In this document: in pieces, positions 11,397 through 32,444 of the stretch
Layout of the letters: each line of letters begins with the position of its first letter
How positions within the stretch are numbered: position 1 is the first letter of the stretch
NCBI GenBank assembly: GCA_919901575.1
Contig: CAKKPF010000312.1
Location: 1-39,662, forward strand
Direction of reading: 5' to 3'
Source of the DNA: Candidatus Brocadiaceae bacterium
GTDB lineage: Bacteria > Planctomycetota > Brocadiia > Brocadiales > Scalinduaceae
Length of the DNA stretch: 39,662 bases
Translations under genes and position numbers: made by a program
Notes under the pieces: model-generated
Seen by the model: only the letters and a program-made list of their open reading frames with translations
Told to the model about the DNA's origin: nothing
Databases searched by the model: none

Positions 11397-12824
11397 TTAT
11401 TCCTTAGTCAATACATGGCGGTAATTTCTACAAGCGAATTTTAGAGATTCCCAAAAGTTTCTGCGCTCACTTCTAATATAATTGTAAAAGTAAATAATCC
11501 CAAACCACCAGGTGAAGAAACAGTTTGGTTTGATGTAAATGAGTTTCTTGATCAAGTGGAAAGTCCACGGCCAGAGGACGGCTGTTTGAAAGAGTTTTTG
11601 GAGATTTTCCATTTCATGTATATTCTCTACATCTAACTTGGAATCAAGAAAGAATGATTTTGAAATAGTATTACATTGAAAATGCTCATCCAAATAACCT
11701 CTCTCGAAAGCATAATCGGTCAATTTTGTTCCTGGAAATGGTGAAAAGAGTGAACACCATGGATAATCTGTCTTAATTCTGATATTCAACTCAACCGTAG
11801 CAAATGCGTCTTCAAGTGTTTCATCCGGCAGACCCATGATATTGTAAGTTCTAAACTTGATTCCAGCCTTATGCAACAATTCAGCGGCCTTGATAATCTG
11901 GTCATCTTTCAGTTGTTTTTTCAGGACACGGTTACGCAACGATTCGTTTCCACTTTCAATACCAAAGAAAACAGATCGACAACCTCCCTCTGCAAGATGA
12001 AAAGCGTATTCCTCATCTGAAGCCACAATATCTGCACGCACCAGACATATAAAATCCAACCCTATTTCTTTCTTAAAGATGGGAAGAAATCGATAAAGCC
12101 AGGACTTGCTCAAGCCAAACACATCATCTGCAAAATATATCACCCGTACATTCGTTTCTTCCTTCAGTCTCATACACTCTTCTATAACTTTCTCAATACG
12201 GCGGATACGAACGTATTTACCTTTACCTTTATAAAGTTCACGCATCGCATCTTCAAAACAAAATGAACAATGAAATGGGCAGCCGCGTGAAGTGATAACG
12301 TTGCGTACAGTACGGTCCAATCTGGATCCCAACGCGTCGTAAAGATGACGATCAGGAAAAGGGTAATCATCCAGGTCTTTCCTGAGATTTCTGAGAGGTG
12401 TCTGTACAAAATTGCCATCCTTTTTGATGCACAAATTTGGAACTCTATCAATCGGTTTTTTAGCATCAATCAGGTTCATCACTTCTAGTATTGCCTCTTC
12501 TCCCTCACCCCGCACCAGCATATCAATGGAGGTTTCTTCGCCAAACTGAGGGAAAAAAGTTGGATGGGCGCCTCCAAAAATATTAGGAATCCCGTATTCA
12601 CGTTTGATATGGCCAGCCATTTCTTTAGCCCATTCATGGCTGCCAGTCATGATGGAAAACCCTACAATATCCGGGCGAAATTTAGTGATGGATGATGCAA
12701 AATCATCCAGCGTTTCCCCAAATGCTAACTGACATTCATGACCATGCTTTTTTACAATTGAAGAAACATACATGGGACCCAGGAACTCATATTCTATATT
12801 TTGCAGAAAAAGAAGTTTTGCCAT
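11397..12824 (-). CDS. B12-binding-domain radical SAM protein
   Basis: The 475-residue protein has a cobalamin-binding-like Rossmann domain (residues 1-125, with GGAHPTFFP at 84-92). The radical SAM barrel follows, with its CX3CX2C cluster motif SRGCPFHCSFC (C182, C186, C189), then the typical GIESGNESL and IMGLPDETLED segments. It belongs to the BchE/Fe-S oxidoreductase type that performs methylations, cyclisations or other radical steps. The C-terminal 100 residues are basic and aromatic-rich and may lie at the membrane. The methyltransferase starts about 50 bases downstream, so both could be in one transcript. No substrate can be given; modification of a lipid or glycan intermediate is the context-based guess. 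Confidence 0.88.
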   Translation of the reverse strand: MAKLLFLQNIEYEFLGPMYVSSIVKKHGHECQLAFGETLDDFASSITKFRPDIVGFSIMTGSHEWAKEMAGHIKREYGIPNIFGGAHPTFFPQFGEETSIDMLVRGEGEEAILEVMNLIDAKKPIDRVPNLCIKKDGNFVQTPLRNLRKDLDDYPFPDRHLYDALGSRLDRTVRNVITSRGCPFHCSFCFEDAMRELYKGKGKYVRIRRIEKVIEECMRLKEETNVRVIYFADDVFGLSKSWLYRFLPIFKKEIGLDFICLVRADIVASDEEYAFHLAEGGCRSVFFGIESGNESLRNRVLKKQLKDDQIIKAAELLHKAGIKFRTYNIMGLPDETLEDAFATVELNIRIKTDYPWCSLFSPFPGTKLTDYAFERGYLDEHFQCNTISKSFFLDSKLDVENIHEMENLQKLFQTAVLWPWTFHLIKKLIYIKPNCFFTWWFGIIYFYNYIRSERRNFWESLKFACRNYRHVLTKE

Positions 12825-12920
12825 ACTTACTCATAAAGGGTTTTTAGATAATTGATAGTTTAAACTGTGTTAATAAGCATACTAGGTATAAATATATTAT
12901 GATCAGAATCAGATTCGTTT

Positions 12921-13026
12921 AATACCTTCCAGCCTTCCTTTTCCATCTCCACAAAGATTTTACCAACCTCTTTCTGTGTACCGTCGGTTGAGCCATTGTC
13001 CCATATTATGACTTCCATTCTTTTTT
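12921..13026 (-). pseudogene. Fragment of GT2 gene (copy of part of 3431-4363)
   Basis: This 106-base stretch matches 4143-4248 without gaps at 94 positions, and the final 34 bases are identical. It encodes KRMEVIIWDNGSTDGTQ followed by KEVGKIFVEMEKEGWKVLN, the UDP-binding part of the intact GT2. No start, DXD site or C-terminal half remains, so it cannot be an active enzyme. It begins 12 bases after the stop of the ALG5-like GT2 gene (13039), which suggests the ancestral gene order was ALG5-like then this GT2, later split by insertion of the 4249-12920 segment. Confidence 0.88.
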
Positions 13027-13038
13027 CATGGCAAAACA

Positions 13039-13776
13039 CTAACAATATCTTTTCGAGAGATCATAATATTTCATTCTAAACAAATCATAGAGCATAAAAA
13101 AAGAATCTTTTATAATATGCACCGTGGAGGGTGGTGAATTTAACCATCTTACAGGCACTTCCTTTGTTCTGAATCCCTGTCGCCTGGCAATTAAAAGGAT
13201 TTCAACATCAAAGGAAAATCCTCTGATTATCTGTTTTCTAAATACTTTGTCTGCGGCATTCCTTTTGAAGCATTTGAACCCGCATTGAGTATCCTTAATG
13301 CCGGTAAAAACTATTAATTTTACAATTTTATTGAATAGCTTTCCCATACTTCCGCGTATGAAGGACTGGTGTATTTCCACTTGTGACTCCTTCAACCCCC
13401 TTGAACCAATAGCCACGTCATGACCTTTGTCCAACCAAAAGAAAAGTTTTTCGACTTCACTTATTGGTGTTGACAAATCTGCATCTGTAAACAGCACAAA
13501 ATCTCCTTTTGATTCCAGTACACCTCTCCTTACAGAGTATCCTTTTCCCATGGTGGTTTCATTTTCTATTATCGTTAGCTGATACACCAACTGTTCATAT
13601 CTTTTAACAACTTCAATTGTTGAATCTGTACCGCCATCGATGACAACTATGATTTCGCTTTTGAAATCCTTCGTCTTCAAATAACTTATTATATTTTCAA
13701 GTGTATTGCCGATTCTCTTTTCTTCATTGTATGCAGGAATCACAACAGACAAATAAATTTTATCTTTGTTGTACAT
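13039..13776 (-). CDS. ALG5-like GT2, polyprenyl-phosphate hexosyltransferase
   Basis: The 245-residue protein fits the dolichyl-phosphate glucosyltransferase (ALG5, DPG-synthase) branch of GT2: LSVVIPAYNEEKRI (residues 9-22), GKGYSVRRG (77-85), the metal-binding FTDADLSTP with D98/D100, DTQCGFKCF, and the C-terminal WLNSPPSTVHIIKDS. Family role: transfer of a hexose from a nucleotide sugar to a polyprenyl phosphate on the cytoplasmic face. It ends with TAG and lacks a clear ribosome site, but starts only 14 bases after the DUF2079 membrane protein gene, so translation may be coupled. The product would serve as donor for GT-C enzymes, of which the DUF2079 protein and those at 5830, 7643 and 31038 are candidates. 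Confidence 0.9.
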   Translation of the reverse strand: MYNKDKIYLSVVIPAYNEEKRIGNTLENIISYLKTKDFKSEIIVVIDGGTDSTIEVVKRYEQLVYQLTIIENETTMGKGYSVRRGVLESKGDFVLFTDADLSTPISEVEKLFFWLDKGHDVAIGSRGLKESQVEIHQSFIRGSMGKLFNKIVKLIVFTGIKDTQCGFKCFKRNAADKVFRKQIIRGFSFDVEILLIARRQGFRTKEVPVRWLNSPPSTVHIIKDSFFMLYDLFRMKYYDLSKRYC

Positions 13777-13790
13777 GAGAAGAATTATTG

Positions 13791-16175
13791 CTAAAATTTT
13801 CGAACAGTAATATTCCCTACTTTTGCCATATCTTCTAACTTATCAATATTATCATTTGTCTTTTCACTTACTCCTACATATATATGATAAATTCCTGGCT
13901 GTATTGTTATTGGCAATTCGACCCAATATGCTTCACTAATACTTTCTTTCTTATTCCAGGAAGAAGTTGGATAAAGTCCGTAGACAGGTTCATGGTCATG
14001 CTGGAAGACAATATTCCCTCTTTCATCCACAAGTTTAATTAACATATAATAGTTGTAGTCAGTCTCTTTAGTTGCCTTCCAAAAGTAAACGATGCGAAAA
14101 GGTATCTTAGGTCTTATTGTTGGTGTATTCAAAGAATATCCCCAAAAGTCAATTTCGTTATTCAACTCAACATCTACAATATGAGCAGGCTTGTCAGTAG
14201 TCAAAGCAATATTATTAACACCTGATTTATCTTTATAGCCCTTCTTCAAGATGGTATAGCCGTCTTTGAAGTGGAATACTCCGTAGTTACGTTGAAACAG
14301 CAGTTCTTTCAAGATTTCATTGAACTTTTCACGCTGAATTCGCGTTCCACAGTAGGGTTTGGCTAAGTTTATAAATACATACTCAGGTTCTTCGCTTGGA
14401 GGTAGAAAACCAAATGGGAAATGAAAATGAAAAACCTTTTCCCTATTGGAAAAATGTGCTCCCAGATTACTGGCAACCGAGATTGATGCATCTGGTGGAA
14501 TTAATTTAAACGCTTCTTTCGCTGCTCTAACACCTTCCTTCTTTACTAAGAATTCGTCAGAATATGGATCTAGAGAATAAGGTAAGGGACCATACAAAAC
14601 GCTGCTTACTATACTCGAGAACAATATGACAGATGAAAAGGCAATAACAAAATTTGATTTCGAAAAGGTACATGTTTTTTCTGCAATATTCATAGTAAAG
14701 TTTTGTTTACTTAATAAAAATCTCAGGCCATATATACTTGAAATAAAAATAAAAGGAGTGATGGTTGCTGTATAAAAGAAACGAATAGTTGACATGAAAA
14801 TATTTTGTGACAACATATTTCCCATAATCATTGAGAAACCGATCAGGAAAGTAGGGGGGTGAAAAAGAGAGATAAAACATAATGGCAGTAGCAATAAAGC
14901 GATATACCCCATTTTTTCCAGAATCAGGATTTTTTTCAGGATAAAGAGTGGATGCAGGAGTATGGTTGAAATAATCTCTCCTATACTACTTCCAAGATCA
15001 GAATAAAGGCCAAAAGAGCCTGTATTCAGTTTGGAATCTTCTCCCGATGTTATGTATGGTAGAAAAATCCAATAGGCAAAGTAGAACCAGGCCAGACTCA
15101 TACTAATTGTGATGACGCCGATCTTCTTCTTCCTTTCATAGAAGAAAATATATATTCCTAAGAAAAAGACTATAGGAACAACATCTTCTCTGCACAACAA
15201 GGCCAGCAATAAGAAAATAAAATACTTGAAATAAAATCTTTTGTGAAAAAAATAAAAGGTAAAAAGAATCAGAGGGGTCGCAATATTTACTGGATGGAAA
15301 TCATACAAATTGGCAAACTGCAATGCCGGGTATAGAAGATATCCAATACATAGAGAAATGGCTAATAAATTGCTGTCAAGCTTATCCTTTGCCAGCCAAT
15401 AAATGGGAAAAACTCCCGATGACAGTAATACGCTTTGTAAAATAAGTAACGTAATCGGATCACTGTAAATTTTATAAAAGGGGCTCAAAAAAACCAGAAT
15501 GGGGGTCATGTGGTCTGTGAAAACATTTATATTATTATAAAAAGAACTTAAGGGTGCCTTAAAATTACTAAAAAGCCAAACTGCCTGTGAGTAGAACCCT
15601 AATGTATCTACTCCGGAATTCAGATTAACATGTCTTGTAATTGAATAATATGAAAATGTACCTGCATACAAGCCGGCGAGCACAAACAAAAAACAGTAAA
15701 CCCGCTTTCTTTGCAGGATGCCAGAGTCGGAAGAATTACCTGATAAACCGGTCAGAAGCAGTATTTTCAGGAAAACCACCATACTCCCAATCGGAATTAT
15801 TAAAATTCCGGAAAAGTACCTTGACACCAAATGATTGAAGTAAGGTGTGCTGGCAGTAAATAAATCTTTGACAGGGAAAATTAAAAACAATAATAGTGGC
15901 AGGAAAGTATAAACATCTCTTTTTAAAACGTCATTTAGTTTGAAATCAGAAAGACGGGAAATTATAAGAGCAGAAATGAACAAAGAGAGGTATAAGGCAC
16001 ATATTACTATAAAGATATAGAAAATCGGGGAAGATGTAGAAGTGTAAACTAAACTCTCATCCTGATAATCATCGCCTTTCAGATCCCAGATAAACAAGCC
16101 TAATGAGATGCCGCTTAATGGAATAATTAAATGATGTAAGGCCTTGAGCATCTTTACACTATTCTTGTTTATCAT
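13791..16175 (-). CDS. DUF2079 polytopic membrane protein with C-terminal beta domain
   Basis: About 794 residues. The first 520 residues hold a dozen or more membrane segments and the DUF2079 signature DTLGFYSQAVWLFSN, then FTDHMTPILVFLSPFY. D and H residues in the first large loop recall the acidic site of GT-C enzymes. A soluble region follows (residues about 520-650), and the end (about 660-790) reads as a beta-sandwich (VELNNEIDFWGYSL...PFRIVYFWKA...PGIYHIYVGV), similar to carbohydrate-binding-like domains. ATG 16175 is chosen over TTG 16181; both have poor ribosome sites. Adjacent to the ALG5-like GT2, it is a plausible user of polyprenyl-phosphate hexose. Activity is not established for the family. 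Confidence 0.82.
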   Translation of the reverse strand: MINKNSVKMLKALHHLIIPLSGISLGLFIWDLKGDDYQDESLVYTSTSSPIFYIFIVICALYLSLFISALIISRLSDFKLNDVLKRDVYTFLPLLLFLIFPVKDLFTASTPYFNHLVSRYFSGILIIPIGSMVVFLKILLLTGLSGNSSDSGILQRKRVYCFLFVLAGLYAGTFSYYSITRHVNLNSGVDTLGFYSQAVWLFSNFKAPLSSFYNNINVFTDHMTPILVFLSPFYKIYSDPITLLILQSVLLSSGVFPIYWLAKDKLDSNLLAISLCIGYLLYPALQFANLYDFHPVNIATPLILFTFYFFHKRFYFKYFIFLLLALLCREDVVPIVFFLGIYIFFYERKKKIGVITISMSLAWFYFAYWIFLPYITSGEDSKLNTGSFGLYSDLGSSIGEIISTILLHPLFILKKILILEKMGYIALLLLPLCFISLFHPPTFLIGFSMIMGNMLSQNIFMSTIRFFYTATITPFIFISSIYGLRFLLSKQNFTMNIAEKTCTFSKSNFVIAFSSVILFSSIVSSVLYGPLPYSLDPYSDEFLVKKEGVRAAKEAFKLIPPDASISVASNLGAHFSNREKVFHFHFPFGFLPPSEEPEYVFINLAKPYCGTRIQREKFNEILKELLFQRNYGVFHFKDGYTILKKGYKDKSGVNNIALTTDKPAHIVDVELNNEIDFWGYSLNTPTIRPKIPFRIVYFWKATKETDYNYYMLIKLVDERGNIVFQHDHEPVYGLYPTSSWNKKESISEAYWVELPITIQPGIYHIYVGVSEKTNDNIDKLEDMAKVGNITVRKF

Positions 16176-16486: not shown

Positions 16487-17029
16487 TCAATTCTTCTTCT
16501 TTTTAATAGTATGTCTAAATTTCAGTACGGCAAAATTTACCTCAATAAATGTTTCCGTATCAGAAACCTTCATATCATCTTCAAGGATTTCAGCAATTAT
16601 TTCTCCACTCTTTTTTAATAAACCATCTTTCTTAACTTCATCCTTTGTAACAGATAGTTCTTTAATATTTCTCGATAATTTCTTCATCTTTGCAAAAGTT
16701 TCGATAATTGCCAAAGTAGTTTTAGTTGCAGTTTTGCTCTTTAGTATTGTAGCGAGCATATATAAACCTTTTTCAGTAAAAGCCTTAGGAGTAGATCTGG
16801 TTTTAGATAATTTTGTGGTCGAAATTTTCGTCCGCAAAAGTTCTAATTCGATTTTACTTAGCTCAATTATGTAACCGGAAGGAAATTTATCTGGATTGTT
16901 TTTAACAGCTTCATTAATTCTTTTTGTTGCTACGCCATATAATTCTGCAACATCGCTATCAAGAATTACTTTTTCATCTCTTATCTCTAAAATAAGATTT
17001 TTGATTTTGTCAATATTTACTATTTCCAT
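16487..17029 (-). CDS. ORF6N-domain DNA-binding protein
   Basis: The 180-residue protein has the ORF6N domain at residues 5-95: IRDEKVILDSDVAELYGVATKRINEAVKNN followed by FPSGYIIELSKIE and AFTEKGLYMLATILKS. This domain occurs in phage, plasmid and chromosomal accessory proteins and is thought to bind DNA. The C-terminal part is helical and charged and ends in a lysine-rich tail (KKKKN). No ribosome site is obvious before ATG 17029. It has no expected role in sugar chemistry, is flanked by a mini-ORF resembling an antitoxin and by a terminator-like hairpin, and is probably an acquired accessory gene. Confidence 0.88.
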   Translation of the reverse strand: MEIVNIDKIKNLILEIRDEKVILDSDVAELYGVATKRINEAVKNNPDKFPSGYIIELSKIELELLRTKISTTKLSKTRSTPKAFTEKGLYMLATILKSKTATKTTLAIIETFAKMKKLSRNIKELSVTKDEVKKDGLLKKSGEIIAEILEDDMKVSDTETFIEVNFAVLKFRHTIKKKKN

Positions 17030-17111: not shown

Positions 17112-18563
17112 TTAATTAAGAATTTTCCTTAATTTACTCAGTATTATTAGATTAAATTTCGTAATCCTGATTTTCAGTTCTCCTAGATTCCGCATTTTAA
17201 TAAGTGATTTGATAATGAGCCAAAACCAATCAGACAATGTTCTCTTTTGCATACGATCTATTTCCACGTATAAACTTTCCAGAGGAAGTTGAGGCTGAAC
17301 GAACAAAGGAACGGATACAATATCATTAAACAACCTGTTTATTGGGAATTCACACTCAGTATTCCAGGAGAAACCGGTAGGTAATATCTCTTTTGACCTC
17401 GCTATTCTTTCCATCTCAGTGCCAGGGTATATCTTGGCAATACCTGCCCCTGCCATTACATTTTTACCATAGCTGTTTAATTCTTTTATTAAACTGAGGC
17501 TGGCGGAAACATCCTCTTGCTCCTCGCCGGGAAGGCTTAATATGAAGAATGCTTTTGTGTAAAATCCTAAATCTGCTGAGGCCTTAATAATTGACTTGAC
17601 CACAGGTATGGTTATTCCTTTTTGAATACTTTTCAGAATCCGAGGACTACCGGATTCTACTCCAAACCCCATCGAGACACAACCTGCCTCCTTCATCAAA
17701 CCTAGAATCTCTTTGTTTACAGAATCTACTCTCGATCTGGCATACCATTTTATATCCAACTTTCTTTTAAGAATTTCTTCGCAAATACCTTTAACGTGTG
17801 GTTTCTTAATAGTCATCGTGTCGTCCCAGATATCAAAAGATCTGTATCCATACTTATCGTATAATAATTCAATTTCATCGACAAATTTTTCTGGATTTCT
17901 TGTTCTAAGACTTCTGCGCCAGAGGGTATTGTTTGCACAAAAATTGCAATCATAAGGACATCCCCGTGAACTTACTACTCCAATTGTATTTGGACTTTGA
18001 TACTCCCCCTCTAACCTGGCGTTATACTTGTTGAGGGAAAATAAATGGTAAGCCGGCATGGGTATTGTGTCTAAATCCTGGATAAAGGGGCGTTCGGCAT
18101 TTTCAATTATTTTACCATCCTCACCTCTAAACGATATTCCGGGGATATCATAAAATCCTCTTTTCCGGTTATACGCTTCAAGCATTTCAAGAGTTGTAAT
18201 TTCACCTTCCCTTCTCACAACGACATCAATACTCTTTACTTTCTCAAGGGCATCTCTTGCTGTAGGGGTAAAATGGGGGCCTCCCACAAATATTAACACA
18301 TTGGACTTTTCCCTGATTGCATTGCATAGTTGTATTACCTCTAATCTGTTATTAGTGGTGGCAGTTATTCCCACTGCATCAGGTTTGTAGGAGAGAATTT
18401 CCTCTGAAGCCTTCTTGCTATCATATCGGTTGACTTCGGAGTCGACTATCGCAACTTCTATTCCTTTAGATTCCAGGGAGGCGGCGATATACCCTAATGA
18501 AAGTGGAGGGAGCCACTCTCTTTCCATAATTTGCTGTTTAGCGGTTGCCAAAATAACTTTCAT
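17112..18563 (-). CDS. B12-binding-domain radical SAM protein
   Basis: The 483-residue protein has a B12-binding-like domain (residues 1-135, with PPLSLGYIAASLESKG and GGPHFTPTA), then the radical SAM cluster SRGCPYDCNFC (C202, C206, C209), GFGVESGSPRIL and FILSLPGEEQED. I choose ATG 18563, preceded by GAGG, over TTG 18578. Same general class as the proteins at 11397 and 25606 but clearly a separate sequence, so each may act on its own substrate. It lies 27 bases downstream of the GT4 gene (18591) and is followed by a hairpin, so it may end a transcription unit. Confidence 0.88.
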   Translation of the reverse strand: MKVILATAKQQIMEREWLPPLSLGYIAASLESKGIEVAIVDSEVNRYDSKKASEEILSYKPDAVGITATTNNRLEVIQLCNAIREKSNVLIFVGGPHFTPTARDALEKVKSIDVVVRREGEITTLEMLEAYNRKRGFYDIPGISFRGEDGKIIENAERPFIQDLDTIPMPAYHLFSLNKYNARLEGEYQSPNTIGVVSSRGCPYDCNFCANNTLWRRSLRTRNPEKFVDEIELLYDKYGYRSFDIWDDTMTIKKPHVKGICEEILKRKLDIKWYARSRVDSVNKEILGLMKEAGCVSMGFGVESGSPRILKSIQKGITIPVVKSIIKASADLGFYTKAFFILSLPGEEQEDVSASLSLIKELNSYGKNVMAGAGIAKIYPGTEMERIARSKEILPTGFSWNTECEFPINRLFNDIVSVPLFVQPQLPLESLYVEIDRMQKRTLSDWFWLIIKSLIKMRNLGELKIRITKFNLIILSKLRKILN

Positions 18564-18590
18564 CCGATTTAACCTCAAGTGTTATTACAC

Positions 18591-19896: not shown

Positions 19897-20646
19897 CTAA
19901 TTTTTTCGACATAGGAAAAATAAGTTATAGGCAAATCTCTGCATTCTGATTTTTGAGAAAAACCATTCCGCAAGAGGAGAAATATTCCTTATTAGAGGAA
20001 GCATTTGGAGATAGCGTAAATACCGCCAACCCTCAATCTTCTCAATTAACAGTCCATTACGGCAAATAAGCTCAATAATCTCTTTATACTTATAGCAGGT
20101 GTCTACAGGTTGATCAGTGTTTAAAGGGTGTTCATAGGGTAAAAGGCGACTTCTGAGCCATTTTGTCGGTATTAAACTATCAAGATAAAGAAATGGCCAA
20201 AATCCCGTTCCATTAGGCACCGTAACAACTATAAATCCAGTTTTCTTAAGTACGCGTATAATTTCCTGAAGGCAATGATCCGGGTTCTTTAAATGTTCTA
20301 AGGTTTCTGTACAAAATACAAGATCAAAGTAGTTGTCTTCGAAAGGAATCTTTTCCTGGATATCCCCTTTCTTTATTGCAATCTTACCAGATTTTTCAGA
20401 CACTTCTTTGATTCGGATATCTACCAGGTCTACGCCATATAGATGACTGTCAGGATAGCTTTTAGCAATCTCTACAAGCAATTCTCCATAACCACAACCT
20501 GCATCCAGAATTTTTTTGCCCTTCAAATCACCGGCCAATGAAATAACACGTTTGTTAAATTCTTTTCCTAGCCCTCGTCTTTGATTCAAAACATTATACT
20601 TTTTAACAATTTCTTCTTTAGTCAGGTTGTAACCAGTTTTCAGCAT
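19897..20646 (-). CDS. Class I SAM-dependent methyltransferase
   Basis: The 249-residue protein has SAM motif I ILDAGCGYGE (residues 46-55), the acidic end of strand 2 (GVDLVD) and FDLVFCTETLEHLKNPDHCLQEIIRVLKKTG, the Methyltransf_11 pattern. The start ATG 20646 lies 4 bases after the stop of the CDP-alcohol phosphotransferase gene, with AGGA upstream; the longer open frame to 20736 overlaps that gene and is not used. The gene ends in a double TAG. Close coupling suggests that it methylates the product of, or a lipid made by, the neighbouring enzyme, but this is inference. Confidence 0.87.
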   Translation of the reverse strand: MLKTGYNLTKEEIVKKYNVLNQRRGLGKEFNKRVISLAGDLKGKKILDAGCGYGELLVEIAKSYPDSHLYGVDLVDIRIKEVSEKSGKIAIKKGDIQEKIPFEDNYFDLVFCTETLEHLKNPDHCLQEIIRVLKKTGFIVVTVPNGTGFWPFLYLDSLIPTKWLRSRLLPYEHPLNTDQPVDTCYKYKEIIELICRNGLLIEKIEGWRYLRYLQMLPLIRNISPLAEWFFSKIRMQRFAYNLFFLCRKN

Positions 20647-20650
20647 TTTG

Positions 20651-21475
20651 CTATAGTGGTTCCTGTAGATGAGATTTACGTAGTTGTCTACCACGATTAC
20701 AGTAAATAATAACCAGCAGGATGGTGTGCAATACATAATAAGACAGGAAGAAGATCAATAATAGATCAACTGCCCTTCCAATAAATGCCAGAACAAGTAA
20801 AAAAAGATATGTTTCTCTTACCCGTAGATTATGGTTGATTCTGCGGATAATATTTCGAATAAAAGAGAGTGAGTCATTTCTATTTTCTGCCACGCCATCT
20901 TTAGATATTCCTGATTTGGTCTTGTCAAAAAGGTTGTTAATATCTTTCCTGAGTAATCTGTCAAAAGTACCTTCTACGTATCCGACAAGGTTGTAGAAAT
21001 AGCACGTTATACCACCTGTTATCAACCAAACAATTTCTCCCTTGTCGAATGGGTTGTGCCAATATAATAGCTGCGGATGTCGATATGTCATAAATCCGAT
21101 AAGGGCCCAGAGCCCTATGTCCACCCATGCCATAACTGAATCGAGAAAACTGCCGTAAGGGTTTTCCGTTTTCATAGTACGTGCCATGCTTCCATCCACG
21201 CAGTCGAGAAGATTGAAGAATATCAGCAAAGAGATTCCAATAAGCAATAATTGTTCCTGACTGCTCATCAAACATAAGCATCCAATCAAAGCAACAAAAC
21301 CGGAGATCCAGGATACTGTCTCAGAAGCTAAACCAAGGCGGATGGCCAACCAGGTCAACAAGAATCCCAGGGGGCGAAATAGATATCGGCTTAACGGGAG
21401 ATACCTTTCGTATTCTCGTTTCCATGCGTGTGTAGCTCGAATTTCCTGAAGAGTTGGGTATTTATATTTAGCCAT
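20651..21475 (-). CDS. CDP-alcohol phosphatidyltransferase family protein, altered catalytic motif
   Basis: 274 residues with several membrane segments. The family motif DX2DGX2AR...GX3DX3D can be followed: D91, D94-G95, A98-R99, G108 and D112 are present, but the last Asp (expected at 116) is Ala; the next Asp is D119. In studied members this fourth Asp acts as base for the attacking alcohol, so activity may be altered or lost unless D119 substitutes. ATG 21475 has AGGA at 6 bases. Such enzymes move a phospho-alcohol group from a CDP carrier onto a lipid or sugar acceptor at the membrane. A phospho-group decoration on the glycan or a special lipid is possible. Four bases separate it from the methyltransferase start. 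Confidence 0.85.
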   Translation of the reverse strand: MAKYKYPTLQEIRATHAWKREYERYLPLSRYLFRPLGFLLTWLAIRLGLASETVSWISGFVALIGCLCLMSSQEQLLLIGISLLIFFNLLDCVDGSMARTMKTENPYGSFLDSVMAWVDIGLWALIGFMTYRHPQLLYWHNPFDKGEIVWLITGGITCYFYNLVGYVEGTFDRLLRKDINNLFDKTKSGISKDGVAENRNDSLSFIRNIIRRINHNLRVRETYLFLLVLAFIGRAVDLLLIFFLSYYVLHTILLVIIYCNRGRQLRKSHLQEPL

Positions 21476-24577: not shown

Positions 24578-25609
24578 TTATGAAAGAGAGGCAACCAAAA
24601 TACCATTTTCGCCTTCGACAAAGCCATTGTTTTCGGGTTCAACAAAAAAGCCGCTATCTTCAAGATGCTTTATGATCTTTTCCGGATTATCATGATATTC
24701 AACTACCATTTTCCTTATTTTCTTAAGATATATCGTATCACATGAAAGGAGAGCTTGAAATTCACAACCCTCACAGTCCATTTTCATAAAATCAATTTCA
24801 CCAATATTTTCTACTATCTCTTTAAATGATACGGCCTTCATCTCGACTGTTTTGCCTTCTCTTCCCTTTGAAAGTTTTAACCCAAATGCCCCTGTTGGCC
24901 CATTGTAAAAGTTGTCTTCTTTGGTAAATATAATAGAGTTTTCATTACTTGCCCCGCAATTAATGGTTTTTACATTCTTTAAATTATTGAGTTCAATATT
25001 TTTGGTCAGAATCTGATAAAGTACCGGATGAGGCTCATAGACATAAACCATGGACGCGCCTAAATTTGAAAAATATACTGCAGTATCACCGATATATCCT
25101 CCAATATCCAGGACAATCTTGCCTTTAACATCCGGTAAATACTTCCCATACTCATCGTGTAGAAAAGTATATTTCAATATCTTTATATCCTGTTTTATTT
25201 CTTTTCTTATAATGAACTTGTATTTATCTTTAATAGTAACAAGAAAGAAATCGTTATCGTATTCTTCTACAAAAATGCCGTCGCCTAGGGCAGGATAAAC
25301 TATATTTCCAATGAGGAATAAATCAAATTTCAAAACTGTCTTTTTATTAAAAGCGCAAATACCTATTTCATTTCTTGCCTCATCATAAGAATTTATTATT
25401 CTATTGTATAGCAACTTAGAAAGTATATACAGACACTCCGTGGCTTCCTTTTCCCTTATATCTGTTTGATTAATTTCTATATATAATCTGTCCGGTTTTG
25501 TTTCGAAATAAACGTTGCCCCTGGATTTTATCTTCCATCGAACTAGTAAATAAACGTAAAGATTCTTCATGACAAAGAGGAGTAAGAAAAGTTTGTGGAA
25601 TTTATTCAT
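24578..25609 (-). CDS. FkbM-family methyltransferase
   Basis: The 343-residue protein's C-terminal 170 residues carry the FkbM pattern: VLDIGGYIGDTAVYFSNLG, VYVYEPHPVLYQIL, LKNVKTINCGASNEN and DFMKMDCEGCEFQALL. The N-terminal 150 residues are less conserved and begin with a hydrophobic helix (about 5-22) that may anchor it in the membrane. ATG 25609 overlaps the TGA of the upstream radical SAM gene (ATGA), a classic coupled start. FkbM proteins methylate hydroxyl groups, including sugar hydroxyls. The coupling suggests that it works with the radical SAM enzyme on the same substrate. Confidence 0.88.
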   Translation of the reverse strand: MNKFHKLFLLLFVMKNLYVYLLVRWKIKSRGNVYFETKPDRLYIEINQTDIREKEATECLYILSKLLYNRIINSYDEARNEIGICAFNKKTVLKFDLFLIGNIVYPALGDGIFVEEYDNDFFLVTIKDKYKFIIRKEIKQDIKILKYTFLHDEYGKYLPDVKGKIVLDIGGYIGDTAVYFSNLGASMVYVYEPHPVLYQILTKNIELNNLKNVKTINCGASNENSIIFTKEDNFYNGPTGAFGLKLSKGREGKTVEMKAVSFKEIVENIGEIDFMKMDCEGCEFQALLSCDTIYLKKIRKMVVEYHDNPEKIIKHLEDSGFFVEPENNGFVEGENGILVASLS

Positions 25610-27006
25610 GATAGCCAGTTAGTTTGAAAAAAGAGTTTGATATCTCTTATTATAGTCTTTCTTTTAATACCACCGACCAATCTTCTCAGCAGGAGAGAAG
25701 GCGAGAAATAAAAAGACAAAAAAGCTTTTCGGTAATATTTATTTAAAATATCATGACTCAATGTTGGATGGTCATATATGTCTTCGTAAGGGGAGTAATA
25801 ATTATATTTAGACCAATCTTTTGTTTTAATACTACCTTTTGCCTCCCACTCATTAAACATTTTTGTTCCGGGTAAAGGAATCGTAATATTAAACTTTGCG
25901 ACATCCAGCTTGAGCCTTTTTGCAAAATTAATTGTATCCTGCATTGTCTTCTCTGTTTCTCCGGGCAGCCCAAGCATAAAAAACCCAAACGTTTCCATAC
26001 CTTCCAACTTTGCCAGTCTCACAGCTTGTTCCGATTGTTCAAGGTTTATTCCCTTATTAATATTATTCAATATTGTCTGGTTGCCCGATTCAAGACCAAA
26101 AGAAACTGTATAACAACCACTTCTCTTCATAAGTGAAAAAAGTTCCCTGTCCACCCTGTCGACCCTCATTCCGTTATTTGGGTGCCAGGGAAATTTAATT
26201 CCTCTCTTTATAATCTCCTCACAAATGAGTTTTGCCCTTACTATATCAGCATTAAAGGTATCATCAATTAAATTAATTTCTTTAAATCCAGCTTTCAGCA
26301 TGTATTCGATTTCATCAACCACTCTTTCCGGAGTTTTCATCCTGAACTTGAAACCATGGATATTTTTGTTACAGAAAACACAATTCCAGGGGCAGCCACG
26401 ACTCGTCTCCAGATACCCGGGAGGGCTGGCTATATTACTCAAAGACGGTTTGTTATATTTACTCAAGTCATAAAGATGCCAGGCAGGAAATGGTAACGTA
26501 TCTAAATTGTCAATCCGTTTATGCTTTTCATTTCTTACAATAGCGCCGTCTTTCTTAAAAACTATTCCCTGGACATTTTCAATAGGTAATTCCAGGAGAT
26601 CTTTTATGACAAAATCTGACTCTCCGACAGCAACAATGTCAAAAGGTGAATTTTCTAATATTTCTTCCGGAAAAGTTGTGGCATGCGGACCACCCGCAAT
26701 CAGCTTTATATTTGCGTCTATCTCTTTTATAATTCGGGCTAATCGTGTTGACTCTTGAAACAAAGGAGTGGTAAACGTAAATCCTGCAAACTTTGGTTTT
26801 TCATTCCGGATTTCTTGACGTAGAAAACTATCGCAATCATCTATTAGATTCAGATCTAAAATCTTTGGCTTAAAATCTGCCTTTATAGGCGGTGATGCAA
26901 GCAGGGCAAGATTCAATAGTGGATTAATTGGAACACCCGCTTTAATCTTTGCTTTACCATAAATTATCCTGCTATAAGGAGGGCAAATTAATATTACATC
27001 TGCCAT
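25606..27006 (-). CDS. B12-binding-domain radical SAM protein
   Basis: The 466-residue protein has the B12-binding-like domain (residues 1-140, PLLNLALLASPP and AGGPHATTFPEEI), the cluster motif SRGCPWNCVFC (C205, C209, C212), then SFGLESGNQTIL and FMLGLPGETEKT. AAAGGA lies about 10 bases before ATG 27006. It ends in a 4-base overlap with the FkbM gene and follows two SPASM radical SAM genes. This makes a compact run of three radical SAM enzymes and one methyltransferase. The reaction is not known; C-methylation and carbon-skeleton rearrangement are both possible in this class. Confidence 0.88.
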   Translation of the reverse strand: MADVILICPPYSRIIYGKAKIKAGVPINPLLNLALLASPPIKADFKPKILDLNLIDDCDSFLRQEIRNEKPKFAGFTFTTPLFQESTRLARIIKEIDANIKLIAGGPHATTFPEEILENSPFDIVAVGESDFVIKDLLELPIENVQGIVFKKDGAIVRNEKHKRIDNLDTLPFPAWHLYDLSKYNKPSLSNIASPPGYLETSRGCPWNCVFCNKNIHGFKFRMKTPERVVDEIEYMLKAGFKEINLIDDTFNADIVRAKLICEEIIKRGIKFPWHPNNGMRVDRVDRELFSLMKRSGCYTVSFGLESGNQTILNNINKGINLEQSEQAVRLAKLEGMETFGFFMLGLPGETEKTMQDTINFAKRLKLDVAKFNITIPLPGTKMFNEWEAKGSIKTKDWSKYNYYSPYEDIYDHPTLSHDILNKYYRKAFLSFYFSPSLLLRRLVGGIKRKTIIRDIKLFFQTNWLS

Positions 27007-27067
27007 AATTTGGTTTCCTTTCTATGGCAACCAGATAGTTGGAATGCTTGTTAAACCTATCATGTTT

Positions 27068-28177
27068 TTAAGTTTTGTTCTTGCCACTAAGAATATTATG
27101 ATTCCAACGAGAAAAAGGAGCAGTGCGAGCCATAATAGATTGATAAGCTTCGCACGGTGTCCAGCAATTAGGACACCTTCCGTCTATAACGTCTTTTCTT
27201 AATTCCATAATCTTCGAATCTTGAAGAAAGGTATCTAATGAATATTGATAATCTTTGATCTTTCCCAATCTTTTATTCCATGTAATACAAGGAAAAAGCT
27301 GGCCGCCGGGATCCATGAATAAAGAACAGGATAACGCCTGACATACGGCAGGGTTCTTATGTTCTTTTAAGAATTCTACGGCCAGAGACTGGTAATGAGA
27401 TTCAAGATATTTGATAATTCCTCTGCCTTCACTTTGAGTACGATCAGAAAGTTCATTAAAAATTTCAATTTGCTTAGTAGGATCAATTAAGACATCCGCA
27501 TCATTTTGGTAATAATGAGTTGAAGCTTGAGCAAAGTTTAAATGCATATCATTATATGTTAAACCGGGAATTCCCTCCTCCATCTTTCGTAAAATTTCGT
27601 GGAATCTTTTAATATTAAACCGTGAAATAGTCATTCCCGCATAAACCTTGAATTTACTATTTGTCCTTTTCTTTAATTCCAGGAAAGTCTCCAGGGCAAA
27701 CTTAAATGCATTTTCCTTCCCTCGAATACGGTTGTGGGTTTCTTCATCACCATCAATGGAAACCGTAGCAATAATCAATGGAACAGGAGAACTCATTAAA
27801 AAATCAATCGCCCGAATGACCTCTTTATAGCATGAACCATTTGTTGGAAAATGCAACAAGTACAGATTCTTGCAGCAAGAAACTATTATTCTTAAAATTT
27901 CATGTATATCTTTCCTCAAAAAGATTTCTCCTCCTGTCAGGTCTATCCAATTGAATCCTGGATTTTTCCTAAAGAAGGCATCTATCTCTTCCAGTGACAT
28001 TTCTTCATCCGGAGCCTTCTCCCAGATGTTACAAGTAAGGCACCTTTGATTACATCTATAAGTAACAGCATAATTCAGTTTGACTGGGAAACTGAGATTT
28101 TTATAATTGGCCGCTAAGACTTTCCATCCAAAATTGGCCAGACGCTTATACTTTTCTACATTTTTTATATTAAACAC
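27068..28177 (-). CDS. Radical SAM/SPASM-domain protein
   Basis: 369 residues. The cluster motif TYRCNQRCLTC (C42, C46, C49) begins the barrel, with DLTGGEIFLRKD and ATVSIDGDEETHNRIRG following. The C-terminal quarter has the SPASM-like cysteines VCQALSCS, GGQLFPCITW and GRCPNCWTPCEA, which bind auxiliary iron-sulfur clusters. The start is a GTG at 28177 that overlaps the preceding SPASM gene by 8 bases. SPASM enzymes modify ribosomal peptides, enzymes or sugars. No precursor peptide ORF is visible nearby, so a glycan or lipid substrate is favoured by context only. Confidence 0.87.
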   Translation of the reverse strand: MFNIKNVEKYKRLANFGWKVLAANYKNLSFPVKLNYAVTYRCNQRCLTCNIWEKAPDEEMSLEEIDAFFRKNPGFNWIDLTGGEIFLRKDIHEILRIIVSCCKNLYLLHFPTNGSCYKEVIRAIDFLMSSPVPLIIATVSIDGDEETHNRIRGKENAFKFALETFLELKKRTNSKFKVYAGMTISRFNIKRFHEILRKMEEGIPGLTYNDMHLNFAQASTHYYQNDADVLIDPTKQIEIFNELSDRTQSEGRGIIKYLESHYQSLAVEFLKEHKNPAVCQALSCSLFMDPGGQLFPCITWNKRLGKIKDYQYSLDTFLQDSKIMELRKDVIDGRCPNCWTPCEAYQSIMARTAPFSRWNHNILSGKNKT

Positions 28178-29288
28178 GCTTATAATTGAATTTTGAAAAC
28201 ATTAAATTTATCTCTGTCTGATTGTTCCAGTAGCATTCCCTGCATTCGGAACATTTATCTCTCATATTCTGTGCTCTTTCAGATTTCCAGAAATCCATCA
28301 GGGAAACCGCCCGTATATTCGCAAAACTTCTCTCTAACATGCTGTAAGTAAAACAAGGGTAAATCTCTCCCCAGGAATCTACAGCAATAGTCGCATAACC
28401 AGCATAACAGGGAATCGGCAAAGGCTTTCCATTATAATAATTCTTAAAAAGTCTAAGGTATTCAACGGTATTCTCAATAACAGGTTCTTTGCGGGCATAG
28501 TCTATAAGAAAATCTATGGTTTCAAGAAGCCTGTTGTTCCGCTTAGCAAAATATTTTTCCCGGTTCTCATCAGTGTAATTATCGCCAAAGTCATGGTCTG
28601 GAATAAATCCGATTTGTTCTATGCCGGCATCTTTCAATAATTCGATAAGAGCGGGTATTGAATCGACATTTTCTTCATTTATTACGGTTGTAGTAGTTAA
28701 TGATATTCTTTTTTTTGTACGTTCTTTATAAGTACGAACATTTTCAATAGCAGTCATCACCTGTTTGAAATTACCTTTTTTCCCACGAATAGCATCGTGT
28801 ATTTCTTCGTAAGGAGAATCAATCGAAATAGATGTGGCGTCTAAACCAGATTCGAAAAGCTTCCTTGTTTCTTCCTTGTTTCGGAAAGCGTATCCGTTTG
28901 ATGATAAATGAGTTAACATACCTTTCCCGGCAGTAAACTCGATTAATTCATGAATGTCCTTTCTCAGGACCGGTTCTCCTCCTGTAAAAGCAGCTACAGT
29001 TGTATTTAAGTGATGAAGGTCTGATATTACATTCTTCATCTCCTGAGTAGATAACTCACGTAATCCAGCTCTCTTTTTTAATATATGCTTTTCCGGATAA
29101 TTACAAAATACACAGTTTAGATTACAGGCGTATGTGGCGAAAATCACCGCATGTATAGGGCCGGAGATTGGGGTTTGTATTTTATGGCCTAGATAAATTC
29201 CAATATACTTGAGTAATTGACTAAAAGGCCATAAGATCCTGCCCCTCATTAATTGTTTTTTTAGAATGTAATTGTAAGACTTTCTCAC
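28170..29288 (-). CDS. Radical SAM/SPASM-domain protein
   Basis: 372 residues starting with GTG 29288. The cluster motif is TYACNLNCVFC (C55, C59, C62), with AFTGGEPVLRKDIHEL and TSISIDSPYEEIHDAIRG following. The C-terminus has IPCYAGYATIAVDSWGEIYPC and KCSECRECYWNN, SPASM-type auxiliary cluster ligands. It overlaps the next SPASM gene by 8 bases; the two share layout but differ in sequence, so they are probably old paralogues acting together or in sequence. The SDR gene ends 12 bases upstream, adding it to the same likely transcript. Confidence 0.87.
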   Translation of the reverse strand: MRKSYNYILKKQLMRGRILWPFSQLLKYIGIYLGHKIQTPISGPIHAVIFATYACNLNCVFCNYPEKHILKKRAGLRELSTQEMKNVISDLHHLNTTVAAFTGGEPVLRKDIHELIEFTAGKGMLTHLSSNGYAFRNKEETRKLFESGLDATSISIDSPYEEIHDAIRGKKGNFKQVMTAIENVRTYKERTKKRISLTTTTVINEENVDSIPALIELLKDAGIEQIGFIPDHDFGDNYTDENREKYFAKRNNRLLETIDFLIDYARKEPVIENTVEYLRLFKNYYNGKPLPIPCYAGYATIAVDSWGEIYPCFTYSMLERSFANIRAVSLMDFWKSERAQNMRDKCSECRECYWNNQTEINLMFSKFNYKRV

Positions 29289-29300
29289 AGTTTTCTCAAA

Positions 29301-30299
29301 TCAATGAATGGTTTTTTTGAGACCATCTTCCAGGGAGATGTTAATACAACTTTTATACTCTACGTTGATTTCGTCGAAGTCAATACATCCAATATTTTCC
29401 TTGATGAGCGGCAGCAAATGAAATGGGACTTTCTTCTTCACGTATGGGATTTTGTACAAATGAATCAAAGACCAGGAAATAGATTTATACAGTATTATAG
29501 GCAGTTTAATGGATTTTATTTCTATCCCTAGAATTTCTCCTAAAATTTTGAATAATTCCGTATAAAGAATCGGTTTAGAATCTGCAAAGAAGATTTCATC
29601 AACGGTTGATTCATCCCTGGACACATGGATGAGAAGTGTAATAAGATTATCTATATGTGTAAAGCTTAACGAACCAGGATAGTTCATGCGTGCTCCAATA
29701 CTCTGGTTTTTGACCATGTGAATGAACTTTGAAAACCCGCTATTCTGTCTCATCCCGGTGCCATAAATATAGGAAGGCCGAACAATAACAAGTTTAAACC
29801 CATGTTTTATTGCCAATGCTTTTATCTTTAATTCCGTTTCGTATTTGCTCCTTCCATATGGGGTATTCGGATTTGAAGGTGTTTCCTGGTTTAATCGGCA
29901 AAGACTGCCATTAGAAGAGGTATCATATCCACAAGCCAGAGCTGAACTGATAAATATGACCCTCTCTATCTTTGCAGCCGCAATTATCCAGCTTAAGAAA
30001 TTCACAGTTCCATTCACATTTGTATTCAGAAGGTCTATCCACCTGGCAGATATCGATGAAATACCGCCGCAATGATAAACAGTATCTATATTATTAACTG
30101 GAAATTTCGCTGTCGGCAATTTTGTATAATCGAATTCTATATACTGCCATTTATTGTGATACTCGGTGTTTTCATCCAAAAAGTCAGGTCTGTTTCGTCC
30201 CACAAGGATAAGCTTTTTGCTCCTATTCAATTTTATCAAACGTAATACAAGCGCCTTACCGACAAAGCCGGTATATCCAGTAACTATGTCAAATTTCAT
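29301..30299 (-). CDS. NAD-dependent epimerase/dehydratase (extended SDR)
   Basis: The 332-residue protein has GYTGFVG (residues 8-14) for NAD(P) binding, HCGGISSISARW, a FISSALACGY segment for the catalytic Ser, and the YGRSK pair (Y148, K152). The C-terminal part has VRPSYIYGTGM and SFTHIDNL, as in WcaG-like enzymes. The start ATG 30299 lies 12 bases past the ancestral end of the broken GT2 gene (30312). Likely a nucleotide-sugar epimerase, reductase or dehydratase for the glycan. A role on lipid-linked sugar is possible since the last 70 residues are hydrophobic in part. Confidence 0.87.
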   Translation of the reverse strand: MKFDIVTGYTGFVGKALVLRLIKLNRSKKLILVGRNRPDFLDENTEYHNKWQYIEFDYTKLPTAKFPVNNIDTVYHCGGISSISARWIDLLNTNVNGTVNFLSWIIAAAKIERVIFISSALACGYDTSSNGSLCRLNQETPSNPNTPYGRSKYETELKIKALAIKHGFKLVIVRPSYIYGTGMRQNSGFSKFIHMVKNQSIGARMNYPGSLSFTHIDNLITLLIHVSRDESTVDEIFFADSKPILYTELFKILGEILGIEIKSIKLPIILYKSISWSLIHLYKIPYVKKKVPFHLLPLIKENIGCIDFDEINVEYKSCINISLEDGLKKTIH

Positions 30300-30311: not shown

Positions 30312-30992
30312 TCAAGGAAAATAGCAATACTTTATCCAACTGTATATATAACGAAACCAAACCTTTCGGAGTATGATCTTAGAATCTCCACAGCGCCGGG
30401 CATACTCATGGCTGGGCACTTCAACGATCCGGTATCCCTATATCAAACATTTAATAGTGATTTCTTGTTCGATTGTAGTTATGTTTTCTTTTAAATCTAA
30501 TTTTAGCCCCGCTTCCCGTCTGATTGCACGAAAACCATTCTGGCTTTCTGTAAGCCAGATGCCGAATCTATAATTAATACAAGTTGTAATGATGTTGCTC
30601 CCCACTATACGCAAAAGCTTTTCGATGTCTCCTACAAATTCATCGCTTCCTCCACGGAAACGAGAAGCAACTACCATGTCTGCTTTTCCTTCAATTATTG
30701 GCTTGAGTAATTCTGGGATGTCTTTTGCTTCGTGTGATCCATCAGCATCTATAAATAACACAATGTCCCCTTCCGCCGCCTTAAGAGCACATCTGATACC
30801 ATCTCCCTTCCCTACGCCATTATCCAGAATAACCCTGCAATTCAGTTCTTGTGCTATTTCTCTCGTTCTATCTGTAGAGTGCCCGTCAACTACTAATATC
30901 TCGTCTCCGTACCCCTTTACCTGAGTAATTACATTACGGATATTAAGCTCTTCATTTCTTGTCGGGATTACTATTGTTACCTTATTTAGCAA
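30312..30992 (-). pseudogene. GT2 glycosyltransferase (DPM-like) interrupted by amber stop
   Basis: The first 184 codons encode a GT2: TIVIPTRNEELNI (residues 6-18), VDGHSTDRTREI (35-46), LFIDADGSHE with the DAD metal site, and TESQNGFRAIRR. TAG at 30438-30440 cuts this short at KCLI-stop. The same frame then continues for 41 more codons with conserved family sequence GYRIVEVPSHEYARRCGDSKI and ends at TGA 30312-30314, 12 bases before the next gene, exactly where an intact gene of about 226 residues should end. So one point change has broken an otherwise whole gene. The shortened product keeps the catalytic core and might still act. No Shine-Dalgarno doubt affects this reading. Confidence 0.85.
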
Positions 30993-31037: not shown

Positions 31038-32444
31038 TCAAAAGAAGTATTTCGTTTTTATTCTTTCCCATTCGCCAGGTAGTTTTTTATAGCTTTTGAA
31101 TACTTGTAAATAAGACACATCTCCATGAATCGGAAGCCATCCTAAATACCTTTGCTGCATTAAGAGTTGCACGTTCCACAATACAAGTATAATACACGCC
31201 GACATAACAATTTTCTTTTTCTTCCATAACCTGTTTAGAATCTCTGCCCAGCCCAGAGCAAAAAAAAGTGTTGAACCATCGAAACCTCGATTGCCAAATG
31301 AGTTGGCCAGCGTATAATCCCATGAGGCAACAATATACCACGTTAAAACAAAACAGATTGATAACAAAAATATGAAGAGGCGTCCCTCTTTTATTCTATA
31401 AAATAATAAACATATTCCCAAACATGATATTAAAGTAATAGGATTCCATAGAAACAAGCCATGATTGGTAGAAAACAATGTTTTTAATAATTCCGGTTTT
31501 GAAAAATCAAAACTCCAGCCATGTCCAAGATAAGAGCCTGTGACAGAATAACTGCTATATACTACTTTATAGTAAAAAATTTGTGGTATAAAGCAAATAA
31601 CTGTGGAAAAAACACTCAGTGATATTTTCCCGATCAATTTTAACAATGGTTTCATGTTACTATCACTTTTTCGCACAAAAAATAGATGCTGAGCCATGGC
31701 AACGATTGGTATAAGCGCAAATATCGCATTCTGAAAGCGTATCATAGTGGCCAGAGCAAGAAAGCTGCCGACGCAAACATATCTCAGGATGCCTATTTCT
31801 GAGATATCCCTTTTAAAAAAAGGCATTGTGCTGTACATCAAAGCTGCCAGGGCTGCAAAACTGTGTATATGCACCATGGTCACCTGCCCGGTGATATACC
31901 AGAGTAAACTGGTGGACAGGATTACAATATTTATGGATAGTGACGCTATGACATTATCAAGAAATATGGCTATAATTTTATAGGCCAGAAAGCCCCCAAC
32001 AAAGCCGTAAATCATTGTGGCAAAAGGAACCAATATGCCAAAGACGCCTCTATATCCATCATAAGGAAGTTTTGTTCTTAATAAGTAATTAGAGCTTCCG
32101 GTAATAATGTCTGCCAGTAAAAAGAATGGTTGTGTCAACAGGGCATATCCTATGGGCGCATGATTATCTATTTTGCCTGTTTTCGTTAAATGTATTTCTG
32201 TCCCGAGATTTCCAGGACGAGGGTCTAATTGCAGCTCATTTGTGAGATTGAAATCGTGGTCGAAATAGAGGGAACGGCCAATCATGTAAAAACCCTGGGC
32301 ATCAGCTCCAAATATCCATCCTTTGTATAAGTATCCAAAAAAAGCGTACAAAGCCAGACATATAGCAAAAGTAACAGAAAATAATCCAATAACTGTTCGT
32401 TTATTATATTTATGATCGATTATATTCATTGTTAAATTTGACAT
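31038..32444 (-). CDS. GT-C-like polytopic membrane protein
   Basis: 468 residues with about eleven hydrophobic segments. After the first segment lies FGADAQGFYMIGRSLYFDHDFNL, with Asp in the place where GT-C enzymes have their acidic catalytic residue, then a loop with HLTKTGKIDNHAPIGYALLTQPF. It has no long soluble tail. I cannot name the family beyond GT-C likeness. It lies 45 bases upstream of the broken GT2 gene; a polyprenyl-phosphate sugar made by that GT2 could once have been its donor. The start ATG 32444 has no clear ribosome site, and ATG 32429 is an alternative. Confidence 0.72.
   Translation of the reverse strand: MSNLTMNIIDHKYNKRTVIGLFSVTFAICLALYAFFGYLYKGWIFGADAQGFYMIGRSLYFDHDFNLTNELQLDPRPGNLGTEIHLTKTGKIDNHAPIGYALLTQPFFLLADIITGSSNYLLRTKLPYDGYRGVFGILVPFATMIYGFVGGFLAYKIIAIFLDNVIASLSINIVILSTSLLWYITGQVTMVHIHSFAALAALMYSTMPFFKRDISEIGILRYVCVGSFLALATMIRFQNAIFALIPIVAMAQHLFFVRKSDSNMKPLLKLIGKISLSVFSTVICFIPQIFYYKVVYSSYSVTGSYLGHGWSFDFSKPELLKTLFSTNHGLFLWNPITLISCLGICLLFYRIKEGRLFIFLLSICFVLTWYIVASWDYTLANSFGNRGFDGSTLFFALGWAEILNRLWKKKKIVMSACIILVLWNVQLLMQQRYLGWLPIHGDVSYLQVFKSYKKLPGEWERIKTKYFF

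Follow-up and report, generated by a model that had tools for sequence, protein, structure and literature searches.

A recurrent pair of putative Twitch-type radical SAM enzymes beside glycosyltransferase genes in a surface-polysaccharide locus of Candidatus Brocadiaceae

The window analysed was the entire 39.7 kb contig C312 from the 2.73 Mb draft genome of a Candidatus Brocadiaceae bacterium. The subject was a minus-strand run of genes that includes two radical S-adenosylmethionine (SAM) enzymes, rSAM_A and rSAM_B. The contig encodes a Wzt-type ABC ATPase, numerous glycosyltransferases and methyltransferases, and two extra B12 radical SAM proteins, and this gene content therefore marks it as a surface-polysaccharide locus. 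The open reading frames (ORFs) were, in the order of transcription, SDR1, an extended short-chain dehydrogenase/reductase (SDR) of the NAD-dependent epimerase type (29301..30299); rSAM_A (28170..29288); rSAM_B (27068..28177); a B12-binding domain radical SAM protein (25606..27006); and an FkbM-family methyltransferase (24578..25609). Their Pfam matches were, in the same order, Epimerase, Radical_SAM with SPASM, Radical_SAM, B12-binding with Radical_SAM, and FkbM. The SDR/rSAM_A junction was a 12-base gap, the rSAM_A/rSAM_B junction an 8-base overlap, the rSAM_B/B12 radical SAM junction a 61-base gap, and the B12 radical SAM/FkbM junction a 4-base overlap. These values bore out an earlier note on this DNA, which had described five same-direction genes with gaps or overlaps of 12, 8, about 60 and 4 bases. 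That note had also started the run at the SDR and taken the five genes as the unit to look for elsewhere. However, the frame of a GT2 glycosyltransferase ended 12 bases upstream of the SDR, and the gene of a membrane protein, a putative GT-C glycosyltransferase, lay further upstream. The proposed unit omitted both of these genes, and it included a B12 radical SAM gene that was optional in related loci and an FkbM gene that had no relatives there. The close gene spacing makes a shared transcript likely. A scan for promoter- and terminator-like sites gave chance-level occurrence only. A foreign origin of the contig was considered and dropped because its GC content of 37.7% was within the 34-43% of the other contigs, which is no proof, as such loci cross species.

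The GT2 frame (30312..30992, minus strand) was assigned to the AglJ/DPM1 type, i.e., the polyprenyl- or dolichyl-phosphate sugar synthases, and was interrupted by an in-frame TAG (30438..30440) at a position that is a sense codon in intact relatives. The ORF up to the TAG (30438-30992) encodes 184 residues, and the frame runs on to 30312 with a family-typical C-terminus. Read across the TAG, the whole frame was 59% identical to the GT2 that stands directly before rSAM_A in a related locus (L070), and another relative (L086) reads through the TAG position. The part before the TAG scored 133.2 bits against the AglJ model TIGR04182 (cut-off 325), the L070 GT2 scored 143.3 bits, and the nearest solved structure was the dolichyl-phosphate mannose synthase 5mlz. 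By these matches, the window GT2 would be of the AglJ type but outside the AglJ family. A pyrrolysine codon was ruled out as the reason for the TAG, since the search for pylS found no PylS above its cut-off in the genome. Hence, the TAG arose either by nonsense mutation or through faulty assembly. Two weaker relatives of this GT2 were present elsewhere in the same genome. The membrane protein (31038..32444, minus strand), probably the first gene of the unit, was located 45 bases further upstream. A hydropathy count predicted about nine transmembrane segments, and no Pfam family matched at the gathering score. In related modules, a PMT_2-type GT-C occupied the equivalent place in L070, and a GT-C stood beside rSAM_B in L133 and L061. 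The membrane protein is thus likely a GT-C glycosyltransferase.

SDR1 matched Pfam Epimerase with 90 bits, and its GxxGxxG (residue 8) and YxxxK (residue 148) motifs were both intact. Its nearest solved structure was WbgU, an O-antigen UDP-sugar 4-epimerase. Among named families, HpnJ came closest to the B12 radical SAM protein, and AprD4 was among the matches of this protein to solved structures. The score against the HpnJ model TIGR03471 was 204.3 bits for a cut-off of 577.6, which argues that the protein is not a member of that family. The two extra B12 radical SAM genes of the contig were at 11397-12824 and 17112-18578 (both minus strand); in the related locus L125 a close relative of the former was the immediate neighbour of rSAM_B, and in the related locus L098 another preceded rSAM_B by two genes. 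The FkbM methyltransferase (TIGR01444, 93.7 bits) was a local add-on outside the recurring module, as no relatives of it were found in about 90 comparison loci. It is best read as a chance tailoring gene of a surface-polysaccharide locus, and this reading possibly applies to the B12 radical SAM gene as well.

Both rSAM_A and rSAM_B carried a CxxxCxxC core (residues 55-62 and 42-49, respectively). Four C-terminal cysteines were kept among the aligned relatives of rSAM_A (C294-X17-C312...C349-X2-C352) and five among those of rSAM_B (C279-X17-C297...C335-X2-C338-X3-C342), the last three of which sit inside an invariant CPxCWxPCEA signature, which reads CPxCWTPCEA in the window protein. The Pfam SPASM model matched rSAM_A and did not match rSAM_B. 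The full SPASM motif comprises seven cysteines (CX9-15GX4C-gap-CX2CX5CX3C-gap-C), whereas Twitch is a truncated form that has the first four cysteines of SPASM and binds one cluster (PMC6231123). The seven-cysteine motif was found in neither enzyme. With four and five cysteines instead of the seven required, the SPASM label that both proteins had been given should therefore read Twitch-type. Judged from the aligned cysteines, both enzymes are predicted to belong to the Twitch class with one cluster, or to a close variant of it, and rSAM_B has one extra invariant cysteine.

The AlphaFold models of the two enzymes were confident, with pLDDT values of 89.7 and 89.6. The nearest solved folds were mixed and included the peptide maturases SkfB, anSME and SuiB together with the sugar or nucleotide enzymes BlsE, DesII and viperin. 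Fold therefore does not decide the substrate class and was dropped as an arbiter. An NCBIfam equivalog identity was also rejected, as every match of either enzyme was far under its cut-off. A weak match of rSAM_B to HpnH (49.5 bits) and one of rSAM_A to the tetraether synthase GDGT-MAS would suit a modification of lipid, in which the target of the two enzymes is a membrane lipid, such as the polyprenyl carrier, in the manner of HpnH, HpnR and GDGT-MAS. The use of a polyprenyl-phosphate acceptor by this type of GT2 points the same way. However, besides being far under the family cut-offs, the scores were exceeded by those of other radical SAM families, and no lipid-biosynthesis gene recurred around the pair, whereas glycosyltransferase genes did. 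A lipid target is thus considered quite unlikely.

The distribution of the pair was explored by a pattern-plus-tblastn scan of genome contigs. The scan found 195 relatives of rSAM_B, and the best 80 of the 195 represented many phyla, Woesearchaeota and Aenigmatarchaeota among them. Among 392 Planctomycetota genomes, rSAM_A was present at the cut-offs in 23, rSAM_B in 43 and both in 18 (Fisher p = 2.9e-15, odds ratio about 50, uncorrected for the kinship of the genomes). Five genomes had rSAM_A only, and in two of these (G136 and G302) rSAM_B was fragmented or cut by the end of a contig. rSAM_B was commoner than rSAM_A and often occurred without it. Moreover, the pairwise distances of the two proteins were correlated over 25 loci (r = 0.83; 0 of 5000 permutations). 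The contiguous arrangement of the window, GT2, SDR, rSAM_A and rSAM_B, was found again in two Gemmatimonadota (L070 and L074), with the PMT_2 GT-C ahead in L070. A Geobacteraceae locus (L089) had a single run of rSAM_B, rSAM_A, a third radical SAM gene, a B12 radical SAM gene, SDR, GT2 and a carbamoyltransferase. A Woesearchaeota locus (L133) had two divergent runs, one with GT2, SDR, rSAM_A and two B12 radical SAM genes and the other with rSAM_B and GT-C. The co-conservation expected for the five genes hence held for part of them: rSAM_A, rSAM_B and the SDR recurred in these four loci together with the upstream GT2 and GT-C, the B12 radical SAM gene was optional, and FkbM never recurred.

Surface-polysaccharide loci are gene mosaics, and the run might accordingly be a chance assembly of independent tailoring genes without a functional module. 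The genomes of the same genus, which had neither rSAM_A nor a close rSAM_B, and the lack of an FkbM counterpart elsewhere fit such an assembly. The co-occurrence, the co-divergence and the repeated contiguity across several phyla do not, and they disfavour it for rSAM_A and rSAM_B in particular; this explanation is regarded as very unlikely. The core of the module is the pair of rSAM_A and rSAM_B, a conserved, uncharacterised, glycosylation-associated radical SAM system.

Glycosyltransferase genes adjoined the rSAM_B relatives in most loci. The family profiles used for counting were built from the same loci, so that absolute counts lean high while near and far bins are treated alike; on this basis, GT9 occurred 10.5 times per 100 kb within 2.5 kb of rSAM_B and 0.2 times beyond 5 kb (about 50-fold), the AglJ-like GT2 6.3 and 2.3 times (about threefold), and rSAM_A 5.3 and 0.2 times. 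Carbamoyltransferases and PMT-type GT-C proteins were likewise enriched. The pair stood beside glycosyltransferases (GT9 or an AglJ/DPM1-like GT2, plus GT-C) in several bacterial phyla and in Woesearchaeota. A second recurring set, consisting of rSAM_B, the AglJ-like GT2, a carbamoyltransferase and PMT-type membrane proteins, was seen in bacteria and DPANN archaea (L062, L069, L073, L084, L099, L104, L135 and L137).

The usual order in Planctomycetota was rSAM_C, rSAM_A, GT9, a TPR-bearing membrane protein (listed as GT-C) and rSAM_B. In eight loci (L041, L043, L178, L180, L183, L186, L188 and L189), this operon came directly after one gene or a pair of genes whose large, glycine-rich products are exported; these proteins are possible targets, and several of them have a lipoprotein-like signal. 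Such neighbours would suit a modification of protein: an exported protein would first be altered by the radical SAM enzymes while still in the cytoplasm and would afterwards receive sugars from the glycosyltransferases. The enzyme anSME, which modifies sulfatases in the cytoplasm, is a precedent, and anSME, SkfB and SuiB were among the best fold matches; protein O-glycosyltransferases are also found among GT-C enzymes. However, no gene for a large glycine-rich protein adjoined the module in the window, L070, L074, L089 or L133. Furthermore, all-against-all comparison of 748 short ORFs, each no more than 4 kb from rSAM_B and not nested in a larger gene, gave no conserved short peptide family. 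The groups that did appear consisted of ORFs overlapping larger genes out of frame, the split tail of the window GT2, and near-identical pairs from related genomes. Neither enzyme had an N-terminal extension of the RiPP recognition element (RRE) type, as the radical SAM core begins at residue 38 in rSAM_B and at residue 52 in rSAM_A. In a search for PqqD-like types, no RRE gene was found on the window contig, and the sole PqqD-like gene of the genome was on another contig (C167). Modification of protein is therefore held to be unlikely. The absence of a precursor peptide, which the earlier note had reported, was upheld, and the lack of a conserved short ORF and of an RRE on the contig speaks against a maturation system for ribosomally synthesised and post-translationally modified peptides (RiPPs).

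A pattern that had not been sought at first linked a fifth C-terminal cysteine of rSAM_A relatives to the SDR. Most rSAM_A relatives have this cysteine in a CX2CX3C arrangement, and the window residue at the position was N356. N stood in place of the cysteine in four proteins (window, L070, L074 and L133) and G in two (L089 and L093), and these six were the proteins whose clusters had a close SDR. Of the 36 complete rSAM_A proteins with the fifth cysteine, one (L066) had an SDR-profile match, which was 4 kb away. The loss of the cysteine was associated with the SDR (Fisher p = 8e-6, a truncated sequence being scored as an exception). The association offers a testable rule for the role of the auxiliary cluster.

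The earlier note had proposed that the radical chemistry acts on a sugar, lipid or small molecule and not on a peptide. The glycosyltransferase adjacency and the lack of a precursor and an RRE gave this proposal partial support, whereas the fold neighbours left the substrate class undecided. Association thus supports a glycan or a lipid-linked molecule, and not a peptide, as the substrate, and the gene run as a whole very probably makes or alters an unusual surface sugar. For the substrate, step order and redox chemistry, we infer the following scheme, in which the core module would comprise GT-C, the AglJ/DPM1-type GT2, SDR, rSAM_A and rSAM_B within an ABC-transporter (Wzt-type) surface-polysaccharide locus. 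The GT2 would load a hexose onto polyprenyl phosphate, and the GT-C would transfer the lipid-linked hexose on the outer side. The two Twitch enzymes would edit the sugar before or during lipid linkage. A 5'-deoxyadenosyl radical would abstract hydrogen from a carbinol carbon, and the second electron would pass to the auxiliary cluster to give a ketone, as in BtrN. This oxidation may be assigned to rSAM_A by analogy, and reduction of the ketone by the SDR would result in net epimerisation or deoxygenation. The more widespread rSAM_B, often found without rSAM_A, may perform a more general step. The B12 radical SAM protein (C-methylation or carbon rearrangement) and FkbM (O-methylation) would be optional decorations.

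The co-occurrence, co-divergence, glycosyltransferase adjacency, BtrN-like cysteines, SDR/cysteine link and HpnJ kinship were counted as support for this scheme. Several observations weigh against it. The fold neighbours are mixed, and unrelated tailoring genes accumulate in surface-sugar loci, which would place some of these genes side by side in any case. Sequence similarity networks are non-predictive of function in this superfamily (PMC6231123), and the large exported proteins that accompany the pair in Planctomycetota fit a protein target. The link between the cysteine and the SDR was noticed afterwards, involves about two lineages, and used an SDR profile trained on some of the same loci; it is therefore a lead. 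Moreover, the stop codon in the GT2 may mean that the pathway is partly dead in this genome, unless it is an assembly error. On balance, we give an about even chance to the view that radical oxidation by the pair and reduction by the SDR alter a sugar that a polyprenyl-phosphate glycosylation route either uses or carries. A broader proposal is possible but tentative: a widespread, previously undescribed system in bacteria and DPANN archaea in which the Twitch pair edits polyprenyl-linked sugars, with one version that has GT9 and a five-cysteine rSAM_A and another that has the SDR and a four-cysteine rSAM_A and works as an oxidise-then-reduce epimerase. If true, a conserved pair would accompany polyprenyl-phosphate and GT-C glycosyltransferases in both of these groups, radical editing of surface glycans would be widespread, and many unassigned radical SAM genes of surface-polysaccharide loci would be explained.

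Other features were noted in passing. In the window, an ORF6N-domain (phage-type) gene lay within the polysaccharide locus (16487-17029, minus strand), and a methyltransferase ORF and a CDP-alcohol phosphatidyltransferase-like ORF (19897-20736 and 20651-21475, minus strand) overlapped by 86 bases; the true start of the methyltransferase ORF is probably further downstream. On a Planctomycetota contig (L039), rSAM_B and rSAM_A were directly followed by a gene of the lipase maturation factor (LMF1) family (12438-13871, plus strand). One record (L096) was labelled as a Klebsiella pneumoniae metagenome-assembled genome; its neighbourhood gene families were common to the Deltaproteobacteria and Binatia loci, and the label is probably wrong.

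Most of the radical SAM enzymes known to act on sugars belong to antibiotic or hopanoid pathways. In the open-licence literature, no paper was found on radical SAM with FkbM, SPASM with glycosyltransferase, Planctomycetes with heptosyltransferase, or polysaccharide biosynthesis with B12-binding, which is weak evidence of absence. BtrN of butirosin synthesis is a four-cysteine Twitch enzyme with a fully ligated auxiliary cluster that oxidises the alcohol of a sugar-like cyclitol (PMC9012708, PMC6231123). From its sequence alone, rSAM_A appears to share the Twitch domain and the same set of four C-terminal cysteines. BtrN differs in that it acts on a soluble antibiotic precursor, lacks an SDR, a GT2 and a second radical SAM enzyme of this kind as partners, and was not among the sequence matches. 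The radical SAM dehydratase AprD4 and its NADPH-dependent reductase AprD3 deoxygenate an aminosugar (PMC5461906). The window likewise pairs a radical SAM enzyme with a reductase, and its B12 radical SAM protein matches AprD4; however, AprD4 resembles that protein and not rSAM_A or rSAM_B, and its pathway makes an antibiotic. HpnJ, which is involved in the bacteriohopanetetrol cyclitol ether, acts on hopanoid-bound glucosamine, a lipid-bound amino sugar (PMC12583986). It is the nearest named family of the window B12 radical SAM protein, which reached 204 bits of the 577.6 needed. SkfB and other Twitch or SPASM maturases of RiPPs have the closest solved fold, and unlike them the window has no RRE domain or precursor peptide. 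For the polyprenyl-phosphate sugar routes that combine AglJ/DPM1 with PMT/GT-C, no radical SAM partner is known. The same pair of enzyme types stands beside rSAM_B in many loci.

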